39,302 nucleotides of DNA from the NCBI GenBank assembly GCA_016234495.1, contig JACRBI010000020.1, positions 1 to 39,302 on the forward strand. The letters are read 5' to 3'. The notes under the pieces were generated by a model that had not been told where the DNA came from, did no database searches, and saw only the letters and a list, made by a program, of their open reading frames with translations. This stretch comes from Chloroflexota bacterium. GTDB taxonomy: Bacteria; Chloroflexota; Anaerolineae; Anaerolineales; Villigracilaceae. Shown here piece by piece: positions 1 to 34,916 of the stretch. Position 1 is the stretch's first letter, and each line of letters begins with the position of its first letter. The position numbers and the translations under genes were made by a program.

Positions 1-1470
1 TATCTGTCGGTTCTGATCAATTCGTGCTTCCTCCAAAACTGTGTCCACCACCTGCCTCTTCAACAGAAACACCTGATGTCTCTCCTCTGGGGTTTGAGGA
101 TCGGCATGAATCAACTCAACCATCTCTGACTGCAATTCAGCCACATATTTCTTTATCTGTTGTTCCAAGTCAAGTTTTGTAAAATCTTCCTTCGTTCGCT
201 CAATGGTTGTCAACCTGCGCTGCACTCCTCGCTCCTTCTCATACAGTACGTTCATCTGGGGAGTGAGCTCTTCATCAGGCATTCGTTCTTTGCAAGCTTT
301 GGTGATAAACTCCTGACGTTCATTGTTTAGTCTTTTGAGTTCCTTATGCAGACGTATTTCCTCTCGCTGCATCTGTTCGTAATCTTTCTGCAACCGGGAA
401 ACTTTAGCCTCCGCTTCCGCCAGAAGGTACACTGGGTTGGTAATAAATTCGCTTACCTTCTCCCAGACTTGGGCTTCAGCTTGTTTGGCGCTGATCGACT
501 TGGGGCAATCTGTGGGAGTCTTGCGTTCGATCCACTCCCCCTTTCGGCTGCGACGGTGGGTTGCCGTTTTTGCCTGCCAGGTCAGGTTACATGAGCATTT
601 TAGATGTCCGGAAAGCAGATAGTCATGGCGGATTTGTTGGGGTGAATTGGTTTTGTTTTTTTCTCGTTGCGTTTTGAACAACTCATAGGTAGGGATATCG
701 AGAATAGGCTCCACCGAGATTTGGAAGGTTTCGCCATCACGCGACTGTTCCTTATAGCCATAGGCATATTCTTTGGCGGATTCTAAAATCCCTTGGATAC
801 TGGAGCGAGCCCATTGGATATGCCTTGGTGTGCTGCTCCCTTTCTGTGGAGCGTTGCCGGCAATCAGTCTTTCACGGATCTGTAAGAGTGAAACACCCTG
901 GTTATACCAATCAAAGATTTTCCTGACCCAGTCTGCCTCTTCCTCTACAATATGAATCTTGTTACCGACACGAAGATACCCGTAGCGATCTTGCCCGGTA
1001 TTTGCTTTGCCCGCTTTCAGCCGCGCTTTGACCCCCATTCCCAATCGCTCTTTCATGCCATCCAGTTCCATCTGGGCTGCCCAAGCACGGACAGGAGCAA
1101 TTTTGGAATCGAAATTTTCTTTTGCCAATAAGATTTCGATTTTATAGTTCTGGACGGTATCCAAAACCATCAACATGGAGCGCAATCCTCGATACAGTCT
1201 GTCTTCTCGCCAGGCGAGAATGACATCGAATTCATCTTCGGTGGCGTCTTTGAGCATTGCCAATAGACCAGGGCGATCAGAACGGCTGCCCGATGGCTCG
1301 ACCATTTTGTTGCCCACTCGATATTTTTCTACATCGCGGTAGATGTGAACGACTTGCAATCCCTTTTCCTCTGCCAGGCGGCGACAATCGGCTTCCTGCT
1401 CAATTGGGCTGGAATTTACCCCTTGTGATTCGGATGATGTCCGGATGTAGACCACTGCTCTGCGAGACAT
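1..1470 (-). CDS. Large serine recombinase, 3' end outside window
   Basis: Open for 490 codons from the ATG at 1470 to the left edge with no stop. The N-terminus (VVYIRTSSESQG) matches the resolvase/invertase catalytic domain, with Arg10 and the likely nucleophile Ser12. A recombinase domain follows (about residues 160-260), then a zinc beta-ribbon start (CSCNLTW, about residues 295-335) and a long Lys/Glu-rich coiled-coil region (about 365-460). This is the architecture of large serine integrases and transposases, which carry out site-specific strand exchange through a phosphoserine link. Because the C-terminus is missing I cannot tell a phage or ICE integrase from a transposase. The AT-rich 270 bp upstream and the gene's isolation suggest it belongs to a mobile element extending to the left. 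Confidence 0.93.
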   Translation of the reverse strand, partial: MSRRAVVYIRTSSESQGVNSSPIEQEADCRRLAEEKGLQVVHIYRDVEKYRVGNKMVEPSGSRSDRPGLLAMLKDATEDEFDVILAWREDRLYRGLRSMLMVLDTVQNYKIEILLAKENFDSKIAPVRAWAAQMELDGMKERLGMGVKARLKAGKANTGQDRYGYLRVGNKIHIVEEEADWVRKIFDWYNQGVSLLQIRERLIAGNAPQKGSSTPRHIQWARSSIQGILESAKEYAYGYKEQSRDGETFQISVEPILDIPTYELFKTQREKNKTNSPQQIRHDYLLSGHLKCSCNLTWQAKTATHRRSRKGEWIERKTPTDCPKSISAKQAEAQVWEKVSEFITNPVYLLAEAEAKVSRLQKDYEQMQREEIRLHKELKRLNNERQEFITKACKERMPDEELTPQMNVLYEKERGVQRRLTTIERTKEDFTKLDLEQQIKKYVAELQSEMVELIHADPQTPEERHQVFLLKRQVVDTVLEEARIDQNRQI

Positions 1471-1740: not shown

Positions 1741-2199
1741 TTACGGTATCCAGTTTGACAACACATTCACGATCATATCTGGATTTTCAGGATCATTGGT
1801 TTTGAGATGAACCGCAAAATTATGCGGACCGTCCATGCCTTCGTGCATCATAAAGACGCTAGACTCAACGATTGTGCTTTCACCGGGTTTGAGTACCATC
1901 GAACCGATGGTCAGTTGAGGAGGTCAGCACCCCTCCACGACTTCAACATACGGGTCTTCCTTGAAACGCAGTGTGCCATCACCCGTGTTGGTGACCTTGA
2001 TGGCGAAAGTCTTTTCGACGTTGAACTTCACATCGCCGTAATCGATCTGTTGCTGATCCACCGCAATGGATGGCGTGCCACCGCCATCCCCATCACGTGC
2101 AAACAGGAATACGGCAAGGACAATGAACACGCCGCCCAGCGCTAGAAATATCCACGAAAACTTTTGGCTTTGTTTCTGTCTCTTATGTTTTTTGCTCAT
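1741..2199 (-). CDS. DUF1573 membrane-anchored protein, candidate selenoprotein (TGA read as Sec92)
   Basis: The frame starts at ATG 2199 with AAGGAGG six bases upstream. It meets TGA at 1926-1924 (codon 92) and continues in frame to TAA at 1743-1741, giving 152 residues. An N-terminal membrane segment lies at about residues 14-33, followed by a DUF1573/immunoglobulin-like exported domain (IDYGDVKF, VTNTGDGTLRF). The TGA is in the context EGC-U-PPQLTIGS. From memory, relatives of this type have GCCPP here, so selenocysteine would replace the second Cys. The downstream frame is plainly coding (MMHEGMDGPH, KTNDPENPD), and a SECIS-like hairpin follows the TGA. The protein probably acts outside the membrane in thiol/metal redox chemistry; Cys91-Sec92 and the Met/His motif could bind copper (inference). 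It is the last gene of the CuA/NosR-like operon. The alternative is a TGC-to-TGA nonsense mutation. Confidence 0.8.
1895..1911 (-). promoter_or_regulatory. Candidate bacterial SECIS hairpin
   Basis: On the minus-strand mRNA, 12 nt after UGA lies ACCAUC-GGUUC-GAUGGU, a perfect 6-bp stem that can also pair as 7 bp with a GUU loop. The loop begins with G residues and starts 18 nt after the UGA. This agrees with the general bacterial SECIS pattern (short stem, G in the first loop positions, loop about 16-37 nt after UGA). It lies within the coding sequence, as bacterial SECIS elements do. Confidence 0.7.
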
Positions 2200-2208
2200 A
2201 GAGCCTCC

Positions 2209-3192
2209 TTACTTTTCATATTCAAACTGGAACGAATAGATATAAGCGATCAAGTCCCAGATTTGTTCTTCGGTAAAAATGACGCCCCACATGGGCATGC
2301 CTGTTCCCATGCCGCCGCGCAGGATTTTCCCTTGTAATAATGCGGGGCTTGCACCAAGCATTCGCCGCGGATCGGTGAAATCTACGGGGCTCTGCATCAC
2401 CATGTCCATTGCACCTTCCATGGTTTGCATGGAGGCTTCACCCGCCTCGGCAAGGTCGTCGGCAAAGACGCCGTCGCCCGCGCCGTTTTCGCTATGACAG
2501 GCAGCACAGTTTTGGGCGTAGAGTTCTTTTCCGTTGGCAAGCGATTCAGGTGTGGTATTGGATTGCCAAAGATAGGCGACTGCATCCCACTTTTGGGATT
2601 CGGTTAAGGATGTGTCCGATAAGTCGGTGAAGACTTGGTAGGGGGAGTGAGAGCGATAGTAGTCCGGAGATTGGTAACTGGTAATTGGTAATTGGGTTGC
2701 CAGTTGTTGACCGCTGACCGCTGACGGTTTTTGATTTGGAATAATCGATGAGTCGTGCGGAGCGTCAATGTCCAGGTCGAGGGAAACGTAGAGGGGAACA
2801 GAAGCAGGCTCAGGGTCCAAGGGTGAGCCACTGACTTCAATCGTGCCGCGCATTCGCCAGTGATTGAGTCCGCACCAGCGTGTGCAGAAGAAGGTATAAA
2901 TTCCAGGCTTGTCGAAGGTCAGCGTGATGTCAGTCACTTTGCCGGGAATCACATCCACACTTTGCATATCCATCTGACCGACTGCAAAGCCATGCACAAC
3001 ATCATCGGAGGTGAGTTTCAAATGAAGGGACTTGCCCGCTTCTGCTTGAATCACATCGGGGTTCCAGCCGCCATTCTCAGCCATGCGTGCGTGGATCAAA
3101 GGCGTGCGCGCCCAAAGTAACAATGGAGCGCCAATGGCAAGGAGTATCCCTGTGACGATCAGGATGCGTGAGATGAGTTCGGGGCGTTTCAT
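2209..3192 (-). CDS. CuA-type cupredoxin fused to cytochrome c domain
   Basis: A 327-residue exported electron carrier. The start at 3192 is fixed by an ATGA overlap with the stop of the preceding gene. A signal anchor (about residues 8-27) is followed by a cupredoxin domain with all CuA ligands: His67, Cys103, Cys107, His111 and Met114. The C-x3-C-x3-H-x2-M spacing is the same as in cytochrome oxidase subunit II and the NosZ C-terminus. A linker (about 120-215) leads to a cytochrome c domain with CAACH at 229-233 and a probable axial Met near 299 (GTGMPMW). It should accept electrons at CuA and pass them to heme c, or the reverse. It lacks the two-helix hairpin of normal CoxB, and no oxidase subunit I is nearby. 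It is the fourth gene of the five-gene operon 5435-1741. The DNA encoding part of the linker looks like an intergenic repeat. Confidence 0.9.
   Translation of the reverse strand: MKRPELISRILIVTGILLAIGAPLLLWARTPLIHARMAENGGWNPDVIQAEAGKSLHLKLTSDDVVHGFAVGQMDMQSVDVIPGKVTDITLTFDKPGIYTFFCTRWCGLNHWRMRGTIEVSGSPLDPEPASVPLYVSLDLDIDAPHDSSIIPNQKPSAVSGQQLATQLPITSYQSPDYYRSHSPYQVFTDLSDTSLTESQKWDAVAYLWQSNTTPESLANGKELYAQNCAACHSENGAGDGVFADDLAEAGEASMQTMEGAMDMVMQSPVDFTDPRRMLGASPALLQGKILRGGMGTGMPMWGVIFTEEQIWDLIAYIYSFQFEYEK
2665..2735. repeat. Repeat-like low-complexity tract inside the CuA-cytochrome c linker
   Basis: Contains iterated TGGTAATTGGTAATTGG and CCGCTGACCGCTGAC units, the sort of repeats usually found between genes. 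It is read in frame as a Gln/Ser/Thr-rich part of the linker between the copper and heme domains. A related CAGT-rich tract lies in the short gap at 4511-4541 of the same operon. Confidence 0.5.
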
Positions 3193-4508
3193 AGTAATAA
3201 CCAGAGCATGATGGATGTGGCGACGAAGCAATAGACAAAGACAGGGATTGTGGACGTTCCCGCTTCATTCACCTTTTGGGCTGTTCGCGCCGACCAGAAC
3301 AATCCTACGACCAGAGCGAGTGTCTGCGCAGGCGCGAGGATCGTGGTGAGCATTGGCCGCCACGCCGCGTTTGCAGTGCCAAACAAATTCCAGCCAAGTC
3401 CCAGCGGATCAGATAATGCGGCGAGGATGTAAGATGCGTTGGTGAGGACAAAGGATAAACTGAAAGCGACCCAGAACATCAATCCCAGTGGAATGAGCGC
3501 CGTGGAAAGAGACATGAAGCGTTGTTTGAGAGCCTGTTTGCTTTTCGTTGTCATGATCGCTAAAGTGAAAAGCCCGGGCAGGACGATAAAGATGATCGCA
3601 AGAAAAACTGCCGCGTATATGAACCATGCGCCTGTACCGACGTTGTATGCCGCGTCTTTGAGTGTGCCCCACGGACCAAGCAACACGCCTGCGTAGATCA
3701 TGGCGGCGCCAAACATAATGAAGGCTTTGAAGGCTTCATCGAGTCGCGCTGTCGGTTTGGCGACGTCGGCGGAGAAGGGGCGCAGGTTGACGGCGATATT
3801 GTCATGCGGGCAGGTGCGGATACATTCCATGCACAAGCCGCAGTAAGTATTCTTTGTCATGCCACCGGGGAAGACATCCCACGAACAGCCATAACCGACT
3901 TGCGAGCCGTTATAACAAGGCTTGCCTTCGCATGTCACGCAGACTTGTTTATCTTTGATGCGTAATTCGATGGGAGCAGTTTGAGAATACAAACCGATAA
4001 ATCCACCAACGGGACAGAGATAGCGGCAAAAGGCGCGGCGCTCGAAGATAATGCTCAGTCCAATGGCGGCGAAGAGCATGGCTGCCAGAACAATACCCGT
4101 GACGTTAGGCGTGGTAAGTAAAACACTGCTGAACAAAGCCAGCATCAGGAAAAAGATGTTCTGCAACCAGATGTTGCGAAACATCTTCGGCACACGCAGA
4201 TTGAGCCACTTCGGTCTTTTGTCGGGGGGACTTAAAACTGCGCCACGCTGCAACCACTCTCCCGGCAGCGGGATCGGGCAGACTGCGCACCATCCGCGCC
4301 CGAAGAATGGGACGGCGACGAGAATCAGGATCGCCCACCATGCAATCCACACGAAGACGATGCTGAAGTTATGACTCCCAACCGGCGTGCCGATCAGTCC
4401 GGCAAGGATGGCGAAGATATAACCGACCAACATCACGATAAAGACCGCCAATTGCGGGTAACGGTTCTTAAGAGCGGATTTGAGGAAGGGCAGGCGGGTG
4501 AGTTCCAT
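3189..4508 (-). CDS. NosR/NapH-like polyferredoxin membrane protein
   Basis: A 439-residue membrane protein with several hydrophobic helices. The paired cysteine motifs of the NosR C-terminus/NapH/RdxA group are present: WCAVCP at about residues 73-78, FCRYLCP at about 160, and a cytoplasmic-type 4Fe-4S segment (CVTCEGKPC, then YCGLCMECIRTCP). Family members carry electrons from the quinol pool across or along the membrane to periplasmic acceptors. Here the likely partners are the CuA proteins encoded immediately upstream (4538-4984) and downstream (2209-3192), the latter with a 4-bp ATGA overlap indicating translational coupling. No NosZ or NapA is nearby, so the name describes fold only. 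Confidence 0.88.
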   Translation of the reverse strand: MELTRLPFLKSALKNRYPQLAVFIVMLVGYIFAILAGLIGTPVGSHNFSIVFVWIAWWAILILVAVPFFGRGWCAVCPIPLPGEWLQRGAVLSPPDKRPKWLNLRVPKMFRNIWLQNIFFLMLALFSSVLLTTPNVTGIVLAAMLFAAIGLSIIFERRAFCRYLCPVGGFIGLYSQTAPIELRIKDKQVCVTCEGKPCYNGSQVGYGCSWDVFPGGMTKNTYCGLCMECIRTCPHDNIAVNLRPFSADVAKPTARLDEAFKAFIMFGAAMIYAGVLLGPWGTLKDAAYNVGTGAWFIYAAVFLAIIFIVLPGLFTLAIMTTKSKQALKQRFMSLSTALIPLGLMFWVAFSLSFVLTNASYILAALSDPLGLGWNLFGTANAAWRPMLTTILAPAQTLALVVGLFWSARTAQKVNEAGTSTIPVFVYCFVATSIMLWLLL

Positions 4509-4537: not shown

Positions 4538-4984
4538 TCAGTCTTTAGCAACGCGGGGAAAGCGGAAGAAAGCGAAGATGGCGAGAAGTGAGAAACCAAT
4601 AGAACGATAAAGCCAGTCGTTTGTGCCAACAGTTAATTTTCCGATCATGAAGGGATGCATGGCTCCGCAGGTGACTTTGCAGCGAAAGCGGAAGGAGCCG
4701 GGTTTGTCGGCAACAAAGGTCAGGGTTGCACTTTGTCCGGGGTCGGCTTCGACGGAAATGTCATAGCCATCCACATAGAGACCGTGAACAACATCTGTGC
4801 TGACCAGTTGGATGGTTACGGTATCGCCGGGGTTGACGTGAAGCTCAGAGGGAGAATAGGCAAATTGGTGCGCGTCAATCTCAAAGGTCCGTTCTTGAGG
4901 CGTGATGGGTTGAACTGGCAGCGGCGCGAATGCCACCACCAGTCCAGCCATCACAAGAAGGAGAAGAGCGAAACGATAGCTCAT
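4538..4984 (-). CDS. Membrane-anchored CuA-type cupredoxin
   Basis: A 148-residue protein with an N-terminal signal or anchor (about residues 5-22), a cupredoxin domain and a second hydrophobic segment near the C-terminus (about 124-140). A complete CuA ligand set is visible: His67, Cys102, Cys106, His110 and Met113, in RCKVTCGAMHPFM. The domain is a close paralogue of the cupredoxin domain at 2209-3192, sharing the DVVHG and DKPG motifs, but has no heme domain. It lies between the PCYCGC lipoprotein and the NosR/NapH-like gene, so it probably exchanges electrons with that membrane protein outside the cytoplasm. A mononuclear copper carrier role is possible, but the full CuA motif makes a binuclear site more likely. 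Confidence 0.88.
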   Translation of the reverse strand: MSYRFALLLLVMAGLVVAFAPLPVQPITPQERTFEIDAHQFAYSPSELHVNPGDTVTIQLVSTDVVHGLYVDGYDISVEADPGQSATLTFVADKPGSFRFRCKVTCGAMHPFMIGKLTVGTNDWLYRSIGFSLLAIFAFFRFPRVAKD

Positions 4985-4988
4985 GAAG

Positions 4989-5435
4989 TTAGGGGATGTT
5001 GGACGGTCCGTATTTGGAGTAGGTCGCGTCTATGTATGCCCGCGCATCCTGCGGACTTTTGCCGTCGTTCAACATACGCATCACATCCTGGGTGATGTCC
5101 ACGCAGATGGAGCAGCCGAGGGCATGATTGTCGAAGGTGATCTTCCCGCTGGCGTCTACATCTGAAACGTAGCAATCGTAATTTGAGGTGTGACCGATAT
5201 CGCTGCATCCGCAATAGCAGGGAATATCTTGCATGATGTCTGGGTTGGCGGTATTGAACTGGTAGGCTTCCTGCACTGCTACGGGGGCAGACTGAACGTC
5301 CATTGGCATTTGGTCGAGCGGCATCATGGCAAGATGCGCGTCATCAGAGTTGGAAGTGGAGCAGGCAGAAACCGCAGTGGCGGTCAGCGCCAAAATGATG
5401 AGAAGGAACAGGAACTTTCTGGTCTTTGAAAACAT
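4989..5435 (-). CDS. PCYCGC-motif lipoprotein
   Basis: A 148-residue lipoprotein starting at ATG 5435 behind a GGAGGA site. It has a signal peptide with lipobox TAVSAC, a Met-rich stretch (MMPLDQMPM) and then PCYCGC with further conserved Cys (YDCYV, LGCSIC). This matches the family named for its PCYCGC motif, secreted Cys-rich proteins of unproven function. The paired cysteines suggest metal binding or thiol redox outside the membrane. It is the first gene of the operon leading to the CuA, NosR/NapH-like, CuA-cytochrome c and DUF1573 genes. A weaker copy of the island's palindromic operator lies 80 bp upstream. Confidence 0.87.
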   Translation of the reverse strand: MFSKTRKFLFLLIILALTATAVSACSTSNSDDAHLAMMPLDQMPMDVQSAPVAVQEAYQFNTANPDIMQDIPCYCGCSDIGHTSNYDCYVSDVDASGKITFDNHALGCSICVDITQDVMRMLNDGKSPQDARAYIDATYSKYGPSNIP

Positions 5436-29700: not shown

Positions 29701-30285
29701 ATGAAACGAAAAAACTGGCTCATTCATTATTTGCAATTATTGGCAATCGCTGGCATTGCCATTTTTATTTTTCTCGCAATTTCATCTTCCAGCAATTCAG
29801 TGAAGGCGTTGCCTGAATATTCGCACCGCACCGGCGAATCTTGCGCAACCTGCCACGTCAACCCGGGCGGCGGCGGACCACGCACCTTGCGCGGCGCATT
29901 GTGGGCAGCACAGGGACGCGCAGATCAAGTCCCTGCATTACCCGGCGTCCTGCTCGCTCCCGGAGTAAGTGACGGCGCGGAACTTTACGAAATCGCCTGC
30001 TCCACCTGTCATGGGATGTATGGAGAAGGTTTGTTTGGACGGGTCATTATGAACACAGGCGTCAAACCTGAAAAAATCCGCGCCAACATATTGCGCGGAC
30101 GACTAAACAGCGGCATGCCCTCTTTCGAAGGCATGTTTACCGAGGAACAACTACAAGCGCTCGTGGATTACACCTCCGCGCTGGCAACCGGCAAGGCAGA
30201 AATCCCACCGCTTCAATTCCAACTTGAATCGCCTGAGTTCAAATGTTCGCCAAAATCCACTTCTGTTTTTTGTGGAGGTAACTAA
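29701..30285 (+). CDS. Membrane-anchored diheme cytochrome c
   Basis: A 194-residue protein. ATG 29701 follows AGGAG, and the open frame before it contains the terminator. An N-terminal signal anchor (about residues 11-30) is followed by two heme motifs: CATCH (48-52) and CSTCH (100-104). The C-terminal part looks like a single-domain cytochrome c (GMPSFEGMFTEEQLQALVDY). It links the molybdoenzyme complex to external acceptors or donors. Its TAA overlaps the ATG of the molybdoenzyme gene (TAATG). Confidence 0.9.
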   Translation: MKRKNWLIHYLQLLAIAGIAIFIFLAISSSSNSVKALPEYSHRTGESCATCHVNPGGGGPRTLRGALWAAQGRADQVPALPGVLLAPGVSDGAELYEIACSTCHGMYGEGLFGRVIMNTGVKPEKIRANILRGRLNSGMPSFEGMFTEEQLQALVDYTSALATGKAEIPPLQFQLESPEFKCSPKSTSVFCGGN

Positions 30286-32645
30286 TGACGAAACAACCCC
30301 TTTCACGGCGTGATGTCCTGAAACTGGGCGGCGTGGCGGCTGGCTCGGCGGCGACTCTTGCCGCAATGAAGAATTTTATGTCCGCCCGCGCAGGCTCTCA
30401 AATTCAAACAGCCGTTGAAGAAAATGTCGTCGCTTCCACCTGTCACCTTTGTTCGGCGGGATGCGGGATTCTCGTCCGCGTGGCAGATGGGAAAGTTGTC
30501 AAACTCGAAGGCAACCCCATGCACCCCGTCAACCAGGGATCGCTTTGCCCGAAGGGACAAGCCGCCCCTGAGCTTTTATACAACCCCGACAGGATAACTT
30601 CCCCGATGAAACGCGATCGCACTACGGGACAGTGGACTCCGATTCAATGGGCGGAAGCCATCCAACTGACAGCGGACAAACTCAGCGCCCTGCGCGAAGC
30701 GGGTCATCCCGAGCAGGCCGTCCTCATGCATGGTGATACACGCGGACAGATGCGCTCCTTCCTGACGCGTTTCATGCAGGCGGTTGGCTCACCGAATGTT
30801 GTCTCGCATGAAAGTCTGAATATCGCCGCCGCCAAACTTGGCATGTATCTCACACAAGGCATTTACAACCTGCCCGCCTACGATTTGGAAAACGCAAACT
30901 ACATCCTTTCATTTGGCGCGAACCTGCTCGAAGCGGGAGCCAACCCCCAGCGCACCATCGCAGGCTGGACGTTCGGCAGACGCGGACGCGCCAACCGCAA
31001 CAAGATCGTGGTGATTGACCCGCGTCAGGGCATTCACGGCGCGAAAGCCGACGAGTGGATTCCGATCAAGCCTGGAACCGACGCGGCTCTGGCGCTTGGC
31101 ATGGCAAATGTCATCATCAAGTCGGGGTTGGTGGATGCGGACTTCGTCAAGAACTATTGCTTCGGCTTCGACAACTTTGCCTCAGGCGGGGAACGCAAAG
31201 GCTTCCGCGATTTCGTATTGGAAAATTACGACCCCATCCGCGTGGAACAGATCACAGGCGTCCCGTCCACCATGATTGCGCGGCTGGCTGGTGAATTCGC
31301 GGGTAACGGTCCCTCGGTAGCAATCATGCCTGGCAAAGGCGGTCTACTCAATGGCGGATTCGGCGGCGTGTATACGGCGATGGCTGTCCACATGCTGAAC
31401 GCGTTGGTGGGAAGCATCGAAAAAGAAGGCGGCGTGATGACCCAACGGTACATGCCGTGTGCGAACTATCCCAAACTGCCGTCCGACTCGACAGCAGCAA
31501 AAGGTTTGAAAACCGAACGCATCGATGGCGCAGGCAGCAAGTTCCCGCTCGGACGCAACTCCTATCAATCGGTGGCGGACGCGATTTTGGAAGGCGCGCC
31601 CGTTGAAGCCTTGTTCCTGTACGATGCCAATCCCGCTTTTGAAACGCCTGGCAACAAACGAGTCGCCGAAGCATTCGCAAAAGTGCCGTTTGTGGTTTCG
31701 TTCTCCTCCTTTATGGATGAAAGCGCGGAACTCGCAGATTTGATCTTGCCCGAACCGACCTTCCTGGAACGCTGGGGCGACGACCATGTGGAAGGGTTGG
31801 GCTACCCAGGCATTTCGCTGTACCAACCTGTCATCGAGCCGTTATATGACACGCTGAATACGGGCGACTTCTTCATCAAAGTTGCCGAGGCAATGGGCGG
31901 ATCAGTTGCCAAAGCCTTCCCGTGGAAATCCTACGAAGAAGTTTTGCAATTCCGTCTCAAGGACATCGGCGCAGATTGGGAATTGCTCAAAGAGTTGGGC
32001 GTGTGGTTCAACCCTGGCTATCGCTTCGCCAAACGCGGAAGCCCGCAGTGGATCGAGAGCGTGGTCGGCGCCGAACGATTGAATGCGCCGCGTGATGGTT
32101 ACTTCGATCTGTACAGCCGCGAATTGAACTGCTTCGTCGGCAAGATGAAAAAGGATGAACTTGCTGCGTTGGGAATCACAATGATGGGCGACGGCGCAAA
32201 CCTGCCGCACTACGAAGCGACTGTCTTCGCGGGCGATGAAGCGCAATACCCGTTCATGTTGAACGTGGTCACGCTGATGAGTCTTGGTCCACGCAGCGAT
32301 GCGGCGAACATGCCCACACTGCAAGAGATCAGCGGCATGACCGTGCGCGAAACCTGGGACTCATGGCTGGAGATAAATCCACAATCTGCTGAGGCGTTGG
32401 GGTTGGTGGAAAATGATCGGGTGAATATCGAAAGCCCATTTGGGCGGATCAGCACCCAGGTCAAGTTGGTGGCGGGTCTTCGTCCCGATGTGGTGAACAT
32501 GCCCTTCAATCAGGGGCATACGGCGGTGGGACGTTACGCCAAAGGACGCGGAGTCAACGGGCTTGAGATCATAAATCCCGCCTCTGAGCCGTTGACTGGG
32601 TTGGCTTCATTTACAAATACACGCGTAAAGGTGAGTAAATCCTAA
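30285..32645 (+). CDS. Tat-exported molybdopterin oxidoreductase catalytic subunit
   Basis: A 786-residue protein with a twin-arginine signal (LSRRDVLKLGG). An N-terminal 4Fe-4S site has Cys53, Cys56, Cys60 and Cys88, followed by the DMSO-reductase-family core and a C-terminal molybdopterin dinucleotide-binding domain (about residues 665-780). It resembles the polysulfide/thiosulfate/tetrathionate reductase branch. At the position where PhsA/PsrA-like enzymes have the Mo-ligating Cys (after GSPN..SHES), this protein has Asn179. The substrate cannot be named from the sequence. It is coupled to the diheme cytochrome gene by TAATG and followed by the FeS and NrfD genes, so it is the catalytic part of a quinone-linked complex. 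Confidence 0.92.
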   Translation: MTKQPLSRRDVLKLGGVAAGSAATLAAMKNFMSARAGSQIQTAVEENVVASTCHLCSAGCGILVRVADGKVVKLEGNPMHPVNQGSLCPKGQAAPELLYNPDRITSPMKRDRTTGQWTPIQWAEAIQLTADKLSALREAGHPEQAVLMHGDTRGQMRSFLTRFMQAVGSPNVVSHESLNIAAAKLGMYLTQGIYNLPAYDLENANYILSFGANLLEAGANPQRTIAGWTFGRRGRANRNKIVVIDPRQGIHGAKADEWIPIKPGTDAALALGMANVIIKSGLVDADFVKNYCFGFDNFASGGERKGFRDFVLENYDPIRVEQITGVPSTMIARLAGEFAGNGPSVAIMPGKGGLLNGGFGGVYTAMAVHMLNALVGSIEKEGGVMTQRYMPCANYPKLPSDSTAAKGLKTERIDGAGSKFPLGRNSYQSVADAILEGAPVEALFLYDANPAFETPGNKRVAEAFAKVPFVVSFSSFMDESAELADLILPEPTFLERWGDDHVEGLGYPGISLYQPVIEPLYDTLNTGDFFIKVAEAMGGSVAKAFPWKSYEEVLQFRLKDIGADWELLKELGVWFNPGYRFAKRGSPQWIESVVGAERLNAPRDGYFDLYSRELNCFVGKMKKDELAALGITMMGDGANLPHYEATVFAGDEAQYPFMLNVVTLMSLGPRSDAANMPTLQEISGMTVRETWDSWLEINPQSAEALGLVENDRVNIESPFGRISTQVKLVAGLRPDVVNMPFNQGHTAVGRYAKGRGVNGLEIINPASEPLTGLASFTNTRVKVSKS

Positions 32646-32669
32646 AGGTTTTCAAAACCTTTAGGATTT
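32637..32669. repeat. Palindrome CCTAAAGGTTTTCAAAACCTTTAGG overlapping a stop codon (copy A)
   Basis: Perfect 16-bp arms around one central base, overlapping the TAA of the molybdoenzyme gene and ending just before the AGGAG of the FeS gene. A variant of the same palindrome lies inside a coding region at 36586-36619. Confidence 0.8.
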
Positions 32670-32682
32670 AGGAGAAAACAAC

Positions 32683-33411
32683 ATGGCAAATTGGTGCATG
32701 GTCATTGACCTTGAAAAATGTGTGGCATGCCAGGCGTGCAGTGTGGCGTGCCGCATGGAAAATAATACGCCTGTCGTCAGCCCTGAAGAGGCGAAGAACG
32801 GACGGGCAATTCGCTGGAACGATGTCTTTCCCCTGCCTGTGCATATCGCGCCTGAACAGGGGGAGTATCCGAATGTAAAGACACACTACGCTACTCGCCC
32901 GTGTATGCATTGCGAAAATGCGCCTTGCGTAAAGACCTGCCCTGTGCAGGCGACATACATTGATGAAGAAGGCATTGTGCGCCAGAACTATGACCGCTGT
33001 ATCGGCTGCCGCTTCTGCACAGTGTCTTGCCCGTATGGTGTGCGTTATTTCAACTGGTATGCGCCGCAATGGGAGGGGACGCTTGAAAATCATCTCAACC
33101 CTGATGAGTTGAGCGTGAACGGTTCGCTCGAAGGTCCTGCCGTGCGACCCGTGGGCGTGGTTGAAAAATGCACTTATTGTGTCCATCGTTTGGTAAAGGC
33201 GCGAGAACGTGCCGCTGCCGAAGGACGCGAATTCCGCGCCGATGAATATGTTCCCGCCTGCGTGCAGACCTGCACGGGCAAGGCTCGTTACTTCGGTGAT
33301 CTCGATGACCCCGATAGCACCGTCTCGCAGCTCTCGAAGAGTCTGCGCGCCACGCACCTGCTGGAAGATTCAGGCGCGCACCCGAAGACACTTTATCTGG
33401 CGGAGGGATAG
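32683..33411 (+). CDS. Four-cluster ferredoxin subunit (DmsB/PsrB-like)
   Basis: A 242-residue protein with AGGAG upstream. Sixteen Cys in four groups define four 4Fe-4S clusters: CVACQACSVAC, CMHCENAPCVKTC, CIGCRFCTVSC, and CTYC with CVQTC. It moves electrons between the NrfD quinone site and the molybdenum centre. There is no signal peptide; it is presumably exported with the Tat substrate. The next gene starts 2 bp after its stop. Confidence 0.95.
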   Translation: MANWCMVIDLEKCVACQACSVACRMENNTPVVSPEEAKNGRAIRWNDVFPLPVHIAPEQGEYPNVKTHYATRPCMHCENAPCVKTCPVQATYIDEEGIVRQNYDRCIGCRFCTVSCPYGVRYFNWYAPQWEGTLENHLNPDELSVNGSLEGPAVRPVGVVEKCTYCVHRLVKARERAAAEGREFRADEYVPACVQTCTGKARYFGDLDDPDSTVSQLSKSLRATHLLEDSGAHPKTLYLAEG

Positions 33412-33413
33412 CC

Positions 33414-34916
33414 ATGCAACCAATACTCACCGCGCAAGACCGCGAAAATCTTGTCTCGCCGCTTTTCAAATTCGACCGCCAATTTTGGATGACCATTGCG
33501 GTGTTGTCTGTCATCACCCTGCCTGGGCTGGCGCTGTATGTCCGCCAGTTGTTTCTGGGCTTGGGCGTCACTGACCTCAATCGTCCTGTTTTCTGGGGCG
33601 CATACCTCGTCAATTTCATCTTCCTGATCGGCATCAGCATGGCAGGCACGGTCATTTCGGCTGTGTTGCACCTGCTCCACATTGAATGGCGCCGTCCCAT
33701 CACCCGCATCGCTGAGTCGCTGACCGTTTTCGGTTTGATGACAGCAGGCTTACAGATCATCATGGACATGGGACGCCCCGACCGCCTGATCAACACCATC
33801 CTCTACGGACGCCTGCAAGCCCCGTTGATGTGGGACATCGCTTCGCTCACGCTCTACCTGTTGACGGCTTCCTTCGCCCTCTACCTGCAACTCATCCCCG
33901 ACATCGCCTTCATGCGCGATTCGACCCCTGAAAACGCACCGACCTGGCGCAAGAAACTCTATTCGACTCTTTCTCTCGGATGGCGCGGCAACAAGGAACA
34001 ATGGACGCGGCTCGAAAAAGCGATCACGACGGTTTCGGTCATCCTCATCCCCATCGGCGTTTCGCTTCACACCGTGACCTCCTGGCTGTTCTCCACCACC
34101 GTTCAACCTGGGTGGAAGTCCACCATTCTCGGTCCGTACTTTGTGGTGGGTGCGATCTACTCAGGCATTGGTCTGCTCTTCATTGCAGTTACCTTTGCTA
34201 CGCAGTACAACCATCACCTCAAAAGTTACATCACCGATACCTTCTATAAAAATCTGGGCTGGATCTTCATCGTGATGAGTTTTGTCTGGTTCTACTTCAC
34301 GCTCAATGAAACGCTGGTCGTCACCACCGAGCAGGAGACTCTGGAATTCCCCGTCATGGCGGCAAAACTCTTCGGCGAGTTCGCGCCTGCCTTCTGGGGC
34401 ATGAACGTGCTGATGGTCGCCACCACATGGATTTTGATCGCGCTCAAAGTTCCCAACAAAGCCAGTAGCAACCCGCTCTTCAAAACCACCACTGGCTTGG
34501 TGATGACAGTGCTGGCAGTGGTCACATTCATTGCATTGGCGTTGAACATCCCTACCCTGCATGGAGCATTTGTGGAATTAGGTCTGCTGATCGCCTTCAT
34601 CGTTTTCTTCGTCCTTGCCCTGCTTGGACTGACAGGTTGGTTCCAGGCTCATCTGATTCCGTCCACAGTGATTGCCAGCGCGTTTGTACTTTTCGGCATG
34701 TGGCTTGAACGTTGGAACATCCTCATGCCAACCCTGACTCATGCACGGATCATTCCCTACACCACCTACTTTCCAACCGTCACCGAAGTGGCTCTCACCA
34801 TCTCAACCTTCGGCATCCTGACGTTGATCTTTGTGGTCTTCTATAAATTCTTCCCCTCCATTTCCATTTGGGAAGTGGAAGCGGGTCGCGCGCTCGAAAT
34901 AAAAAACGGAGGCTAG
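33414..34916 (+). CDS. NrfD/PsrC-like quinone-interacting membrane subunit
   Basis: A 500-residue protein with about ten hydrophobic helices. It belongs to the NrfD/PsrC superfamily, which holds the quinone site of complex iron-sulfur molybdoenzymes. At 500 residues it is longer than NrfD (about 320) and nearer to ActC-type subunits. MDMGRPDRL matches the conserved segment near the quinone site. It is the membrane part of the complex formed with 30285-32645 and 32683-33411. Confidence 0.92.
   Translation: MQPILTAQDRENLVSPLFKFDRQFWMTIAVLSVITLPGLALYVRQLFLGLGVTDLNRPVFWGAYLVNFIFLIGISMAGTVISAVLHLLHIEWRRPITRIAESLTVFGLMTAGLQIIMDMGRPDRLINTILYGRLQAPLMWDIASLTLYLLTASFALYLQLIPDIAFMRDSTPENAPTWRKKLYSTLSLGWRGNKEQWTRLEKAITTVSVILIPIGVSLHTVTSWLFSTTVQPGWKSTILGPYFVVGAIYSGIGLLFIAVTFATQYNHHLKSYITDTFYKNLGWIFIVMSFVWFYFTLNETLVVTTEQETLEFPVMAAKLFGEFAPAFWGMNVLMVATTWILIALKVPNKASSNPLFKTTTGLVMTVLAVVTFIALALNIPTLHGAFVELGLLIAFIVFFVLALLGLTGWFQAHLIPSTVIASAFVLFGMWLERWNILMPTLTHARIIPYTTYFPTVTEVALTISTFGILTLIFVVFYKFFPSISIWEVEAGRALEIKNGG

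Follow-up and report, generated by a model that had tools for sequence, protein, structure and literature searches.

The DUF1573 selenoprotein was reportedly first described from an Olavius symbiont. Sco1 and PCuAC, the copper chaperones of CuA centres, are extracytoplasmic proteins with Cys or Met/His copper sites. A DUF1573 selenoprotein with the motif UGC is already catalogued in the tables of two reviews (PMC13188914, Table 1; PMC9312934), and the former, a 2026 review whose Table 1 holds 119 families or subfamilies by the review's own count, also gives Sec members for another family, CYCXC/PCYCGC OS_HP4. The gene described here lies in a window of 39,302 nucleotides (the whole stretch of DNA analysed: assembly GCA_016234495.1, contig JACRBI010000020.1, from a Chloroflexota bacterium). 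The original prediction held that no Sec-containing DUF1573 family had been described; this has to be corrected in view of the UGC-motif entries of the two reviews, in which the position of Sec differs from ours.

The gene and its in-frame UGA codon

The features of the gene, all on the minus strand, are the following:

1741-2199, minus: putative selenoprotein gene with a DUF1573/ASH-type domain, 152 residues when the UGA is read through
1924-1926, minus: TGA codon predicted to be read as selenocysteine, residue 92 (among 94 distinct genes of the family, 85 have TGA and 9 a Cys codon)
1927-1929, minus: TGC, Cys91 of the putative Cys-Sec pair, directly before the TGA (Cys codon in 106 of 106 loci, invariant in a 32-sequence alignment)
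1895-1911, minus: SECIS-type hairpin of 6 bp with the loop GGTTC at 1905-1901 (codon conservation, covariation and folding)
1822-1848, minus: conserved loop M118-H-E-G-M122-D-G-P-H126, possible metal ligands (invariance in 32 sequences)
2095-2154, minus: N-terminal helix predicted for residues 16-35, which presumably anchors the protein in the membrane (structure model, of low confidence here)
1678-1728, minus: inverted repeat 3' of the TAA, probable terminator (arm complementarity and folding)

The frame runs from 2199 to 1741 and consists of 91 codons, an in-frame TGA (1926-1924), 60 codons and a TAA (1743-1741), which reproduces in frame, codons and lengths the predicted TGA after a Cys codon with 60 further codons up to a TAA. 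The inverted repeat predicted after the TAA is also real: its arms (1678-1699 and 1707-1728) are 86% complementary and the transcript folds there with -30.7 kcal/mol (z -5.82); a simple terminator scan with loops of 3-8 does not list it. Judged from the sequence comparisons below, 2199-1741 is almost certainly a selenoprotein gene. SelB with its Sec-tRNA would decode the UGA at 1926-1924 as selenocysteine, the hairpin spanning nucleotides 13 to 29 past the UGA would direct the insertion, and translation would continue to its end at TAA 1741.

The selenocysteine machinery

The four genes singled out for a search by the original prediction, selA, selB, selC and selD, are all in the genome of this bacterium (G000, 4.10 Mb). 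Its tRNA-Sec (selC) scores 66.3 bits, above the cut-off, with the anticodon TCA, and ARAGORN draws it as a tRNA-Sec with a long variable arm. The scores of selA (552.7 bits), selB (360.8 bits) and selD (341.7 bits) are all above their cut-offs, and selD itself carries an in-frame TGA after LSACAG, which we take to be the usual Sec/Cys site of SelD. Among genomes of the same taxonomic family, selB is above cut-off in 139 of 152. In the phylum sample selA is found in 322 of 400 genomes and in 20 of the 22 with the TGA gene, a co-occurrence that does not discriminate because selA is so common in the sample. The two TGA-gene genomes without a selA match at E 1e-60 (G177 and G405) have a tRNA-Sec; that of G395 is below the cut-off, at 44.3 bits.

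Relatives and their distribution

The codon at the site is TGA in 105 of the 106 loci with a tblastn match (some genes being counted under two locus numbers), at identities down to about 30%. The exception, L055, is an ordinary DUF1573 gene with ACC at the site, and its Cys codon belongs to the ordinary CGC. The set of 94 distinct genes was restricted to sequences in which GC is followed by a stop or Cys and then by P or N, and which have the Met/His loop, a filter that leaves out ordinary DUF1573 genes, L062, L115, G405 and fragments; 85 of the 94 have TGA and nine a Cys codon (TGT in five, TGC in four). The alignment of homologues that had been proposed as a check finds TGA at this position in most of the related genes.

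Family genes are matched in 57 of the 152 genomes of the taxonomic family. In the phylum sample, a search by the single protein finds 22 of 400 genomes and the profile 26 of 400; of these 26, 22 were counted as carrying the TGA gene, and G268, G331, G361 and G434, which show no in-frame TGA, were matched as generic domains. The class sample gives 76 of 396 genomes at E 1e-12, some weak generic matches included. Counted by eye, 84 of the 92 class-search matches of at least 99 bits have TGA (one also TAA) and 8 no stop; 20 stretches were examined further, including all 8 without a stop. The profile searches were all made within Chloroflexota genomes. A scan of 84,980 species genomes gave 52 loci, all with TGA at the aligned position; it used patterns of the window protein, none spanning the Cys-Sec site, so that Cys forms diverged at these patterns in other phyla would escape it. 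By their titles these loci belong to Chloroflexota or its subgroups, except L065 (Pseudomonadota; perhaps misbinned), and one of them, L115, shows a further in-frame stop as well as a gap. No relatives were found in plasmids and viral contigs.

The genome has a second copy of the gene (G000:C21:189381-189839; L058, L163), with 81% identity and one TGA; upstream of it lies a separate set of PCYCGC, CuA and CuA-cytochrome c genes. Broken duplicates were seen elsewhere: L059/L063 (G136:C1:4125077-4125534) is frameshifted and G142:C1:3108771-3108944 is a short fragment. A distant member on G405:C39 (L156, L164) is 22 residues longer between the Sec site and the Met/His loop.

The SECIS-type hairpin

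The hairpin predicted at 1895-1911 is present, with a loop that opens with GG and begins 18 nt after the UGA. Read from 1911 to 1895 it is ACCATC-GGTTC-GATGGT, that is 6 bp and a 5-nt loop, GGUUC. Published limits for bacterial SECIS elements are a loop of 3-9 nt, a stem of 4-16 bp, a G in the first two loop positions and 16-37 nt from the UGA, as given in PMC13188914, and the hairpin lies within them for loop, stem, G and spacing. The same review sets the minimum free energy at -7.5 kcal/mol at most; our -17.9 kcal/mol is the value for the hairpin together with its surroundings, 63 nt in all, and the folding z-score of this single stretch is modest (-1.65).

The case for the hairpin is strong through cross-species comparison, not through the folding z-score of one sequence. 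Codons 97-100 (ACC ATC GGT TCG), which make up the 5' arm and the loop, show no variation among the 48 genes compared, all of at least 57% identity; fixed single codons occur elsewhere too, for instance those of Glu86 and Glu107, most neighbouring codons vary, and there is no second run of four. Covariation was measured in 65 of 66 sequences (frameshifted L059 omitted; L055, L062 and L115 omitted earlier). There, 98.4% of cells are paired, four of the six pairs changed on both sides, and 44 cells carry two-sided changes against 10.0 (sd 2.5) in shuffles, none of 500 being as high. For 21 mostly divergent sequences the values are 96.8% and 22 cells against 7.2 (sd 2.3), again with none of 500 as high. 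Two of the five measures were not above the shuffles in the 65 sequences: for two-sided pairs 127 of the 500 shuffles were as high, and for pair types 134.

The hairpin also separates the two kinds of gene. At least five of six pairs stand in register in 84 of 85 TGA genes versus none of nine Cys genes (Fisher p 9e-12, uncorrected for relatedness), the remaining TGA gene has six pairs once shifted by one codon, and the Cys genes keep one to three of the six. The loop of the 84 in-register genes starts with GGU in 76 and AGU in 8. This clean split is confined to the register, because with free offsets (-4 to +7) three Cys genes reach five pairs at other places. The distant member of G405 (L156) has, with its 22 extra residues after the site, a six-pair hairpin in the same register.

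Cysteine forms, selection and the reading of the UGA

Sec is the usual state in this Chloroflexota family; Cys occurs at several separate points of the tree, and the forms that have it all lack the hairpin. GCCPP relatives, which the first reading of the sequence had named, do exist, five of the nine Cys forms having this motif, and one Cys gene (G081, L138) stands in the same type of operon as the Sec genes. In the tree of 58 proteins left after thinning, five Sec/Cys changes are needed. Branches with good support make at least four of them unavoidable, and many forks lack resolution. The simplest reading of this tree would be that Sec is the old state and was lost repeatedly. At L174 (G634:C380) a Sec copy lies beside a Cys copy, which offers a direct Sec/Cys comparison in one genome.

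Purifying selection acts on the codons after the TGA. Their median dN/dS against the window gene, computed without codons 97-103, is 0.044 (38 of 47 pairs), and that of the codons before the TGA 0.075 (43 of 47 pairs); pairs whose dS was saturated or very low were omitted (9 after and 4 before the TGA). Decay of the frame was rejected on the low value after the TGA, and a change of the genetic code was rejected on the final stops of the 106 loci, which are TAA (73), TGA (20) and TAG (13).

This evidence bears on two other readings of the UGA. If it were a true stop, the 91-residue product would be functional and the rest would be decaying or a separate frame. UGA is indeed a normal stop in these genomes, ending the gene in 20 of the 106 loci, and broken copies exist (the frameshift of L059/L063, the G142 fragment); yet the dN/dS of 0.044 lies after the TGA, the invariant residues P93, P105, G106, M118, M122, G124 and H126 are all 3' of it, and in nine relatives a Cys codon keeps the frame open at the site, which leaves a true stop extremely improbable. 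The other reading is that the UGA is decoded not as Sec, but through programmed read-through or by an unusual tRNA that inserts Cys or some other residue. Against it stand the tRNA, drawn by ARAGORN as a tRNA-Sec with the TCA anticodon and the long variable arm, the presence of selA, selB and selD in the genome, and the SECIS-type hairpin, which in register is missing from precisely the genes with a Cys codon. Recoded Sec tRNAs do occur in nature, and with that in mind we regard such decoding as very unlikely. Decoding as Sec is the reading that we retain; the recoding signal, the machinery and the family were computed, and the incorporation of selenium is what we infer. The claim of a selenoprotein with a Cys-Sec pair is in this way strongly supported by the machinery, the conserved TGA and the conserved hairpin.

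The predicted protein

The window protein scores 20.5 bits against Pfam DUF1573 (PF07610; gathering cut-off 26.1) and is also under the cut-off of the HYDIN/VesB Ig family; all 32 aligned members match both families at E 0.01 or better, the best PF07610 value being 5.5e-12. The structure model (mean pLDDT 85.7, poor in the first 40 residues) shows one N-terminal helix and an Ig-like sandwich. Its best structural match is 2qsv (Z 13.1, rmsd 2.3, 106 aligned), followed by domains of VesC, HYDIN-type and CEP192 proteins (Z 10.8-11.6). The product would be an ASH/HYDIN-like beta-sandwich with a vicinal Cys91-Sec92 pair.

Twelve residues are invariant in the 32-sequence alignment (G55, N71, G90, C91, Sec92, P93, P105, G106, M118, M122, G124 and H126) and H119 nearly so. 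Gly-Cys-Sec-Pro occurs in all 32; L062 has Ser-Cys-Sec-Pro. In the model, alternating strands would put the Cys91-Sec92 loop and the Met/His loop at one end of the domain. The domain is presumably held outside the cytoplasmic membrane by its one N-terminal helix, an extracytoplasmic position suggested by the basic N-terminus before the helix.

The gene neighbourhood

Upstream of the gene, on the same strand, lie four genes:

2209-3192, minus: CuA domain fused to cytochrome c, directly upstream gene, in 47 of 52 named loci (start ATG 3192 chosen; the ORF list gives TTG 3231)
3189-4508, minus: NapH-like 4Fe-4S membrane protein, upstream in 37 of 52 named loci
4538-4984, minus: stand-alone CuA/cupredoxin domain protein, upstream in 34 of 52 named loci
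4989-5435, minus: PCYCGC (CYCXC family) protein, Cys form, upstream in 41 of 52 named loci

The 52 named loci are unthinned and include near-identical operons. Where upstream sequence of more than 4.5 kb is available (41 loci), the same-strand counts are 38 for CuA-cytochrome c, 31 for NapH-like, 31 for CuA and 39 for PCYCGC; PCYCGC and CuA-cytochrome c are therefore the steady partners. The matches to the CuA-cytochrome c gene reach down to 36% identity, and L113 shows the cytochrome part only. In another arrangement the NapH-like and CuA genes are absent (e.g., L083, L098). Six loci outside the class, a comparison whose synteny counts run low, have parts of the neighbourhood or none: PCYCGC or NapH-like genes are near in L157, L166, L047 and L052 (for L052 on the opposite strand), and no PCYCGC or NapH-like gene is near L164 and L165. 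The operon had been called CuA/NosR-like; what stands is a CuA/NapH-like operon with conserved gene order.

The PCYCGC neighbour scores 66.2 bits against the CYCXC (seleno)protein OS_HP4 (NF041379; cut-off 90), and as its Cys-form relative it makes two families with Sec members adjoin. Genes of heavy-metal-associated domain, copper ATPase and multicopper-oxidase-like proteins lie upstream in the window. By eye, an open-ended minus-strand frame at window positions 1-1470, beside the operon end, reads like a serine recombinase, and at 30285-34916 (plus) molybdopterin oxidoreductase-, 4Fe-4S- and NrfD-type-like genes follow in a row after cytochrome-like genes.

Possible function

The copper and electron-transfer neighbourhood points to a possible selenium-dependent step that would be undescribed; localisation and a metal and redox role are what we infer beside this computed neighbourhood. 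The Cys-Sec pair would act as a fast reductant or a soft-metal ligand, together with the M-x2-G-M-x-G-x-H loop, and both, probably outside the membrane beside CuA proteins, suggest handling of Cu(I) or reduction of CuA cysteines. The redox or copper function of the original prediction is plausible, and tentatively we see in the protein a redox or copper-handling partner of the CuA and PCYCGC electron-transfer proteins of its operon. A more specific version is rather unlikely, namely a Sec-dependent, membrane-anchored copper chaperone or reductase for the CuA centres of a Chloroflexota quinol-to-cytochrome chain, whose Cys-Sec pair and Met/His loop would hold or transfer Cu(I).

It is possible, if somewhat doubtful, that the selenoprotein is a general thiol/selenol oxidoreductase or a soft-metal stress protein unconnected with CuA. 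Its constant neighbour PCYCGC is related to the CYCXC (seleno)protein OS_HP4, the upstream genes of the window include the metal-associated and copper ones named above, and CuA assembly has ordinary candidates, since the genome has Sco (5 matches above cut-off) and PCuAC (3 matches) elsewhere; the CuA-cytochrome c-like gene upstream in 47 of 52 named loci speaks for a tie to CuA. A general thiol/selenol or soft-metal role and a role with Cu(I) or CuA appear about as likely as each other. That the protein substitutes for missing CuA chaperones was rejected on the same Sco and PCuAC matches.

Comparison with known systems

If the preferred reading of a Sec-decoded UGA holds, the gene adds a selenoprotein family or subfamily that spans several Chloroflexota classes, and gene finders which treat UGA as a stop will truncate its members. 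The family would also provide a natural series of Sec/Cys switches, with Cys forms that lack the SECIS hairpin, and a directly testable case in which selenium use is tied to a conserved copper and electron-transfer neighbourhood, probably outside the cytoplasm.

With the window protein as query and E values of up to 1 accepted, searches gave no match to a selenoprotein model of NCBIfam and no Pfam match to Sco1/SenC (PF02630) or PCuAC (PF04314). The best structural match, 2qsv from Porphyromonas gingivalis, has 20% identity and no function given. OS_HP4 (NF041379) of the CYCXC/PCYCGC family is a different protein, a relative of the neighbour gene. Ordinary DUF1573 proteins (C-G-C-T; L055, L182-L185) have the same domain, but are without the in-frame TGA, the Cys-Cys and the M-x2-G-M-x-G-x-H loop, and the Sec of the present family aligns, according to the pair compared, to the Thr or the Gly of their C-G-C-T and not to a Cys. 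A G-C-U-P DUF1573 protein is not among the 119 families and subfamilies in Table 1 of PMC13188914, and paper searches gave none. The known DUF1573 selenoprotein shares the PF07610 domain and Sec with the present family, and differs from it in its motif, which is Sec-Gly-Cys there and Gly-Cys-Sec-Pro here. Under the rule of the 2026 review, by which a different Sec position or motif makes a distinct subfamily (PMC13188914), the G-C-U-P family would be a new subfamily entry, because its motif differs from UGC.
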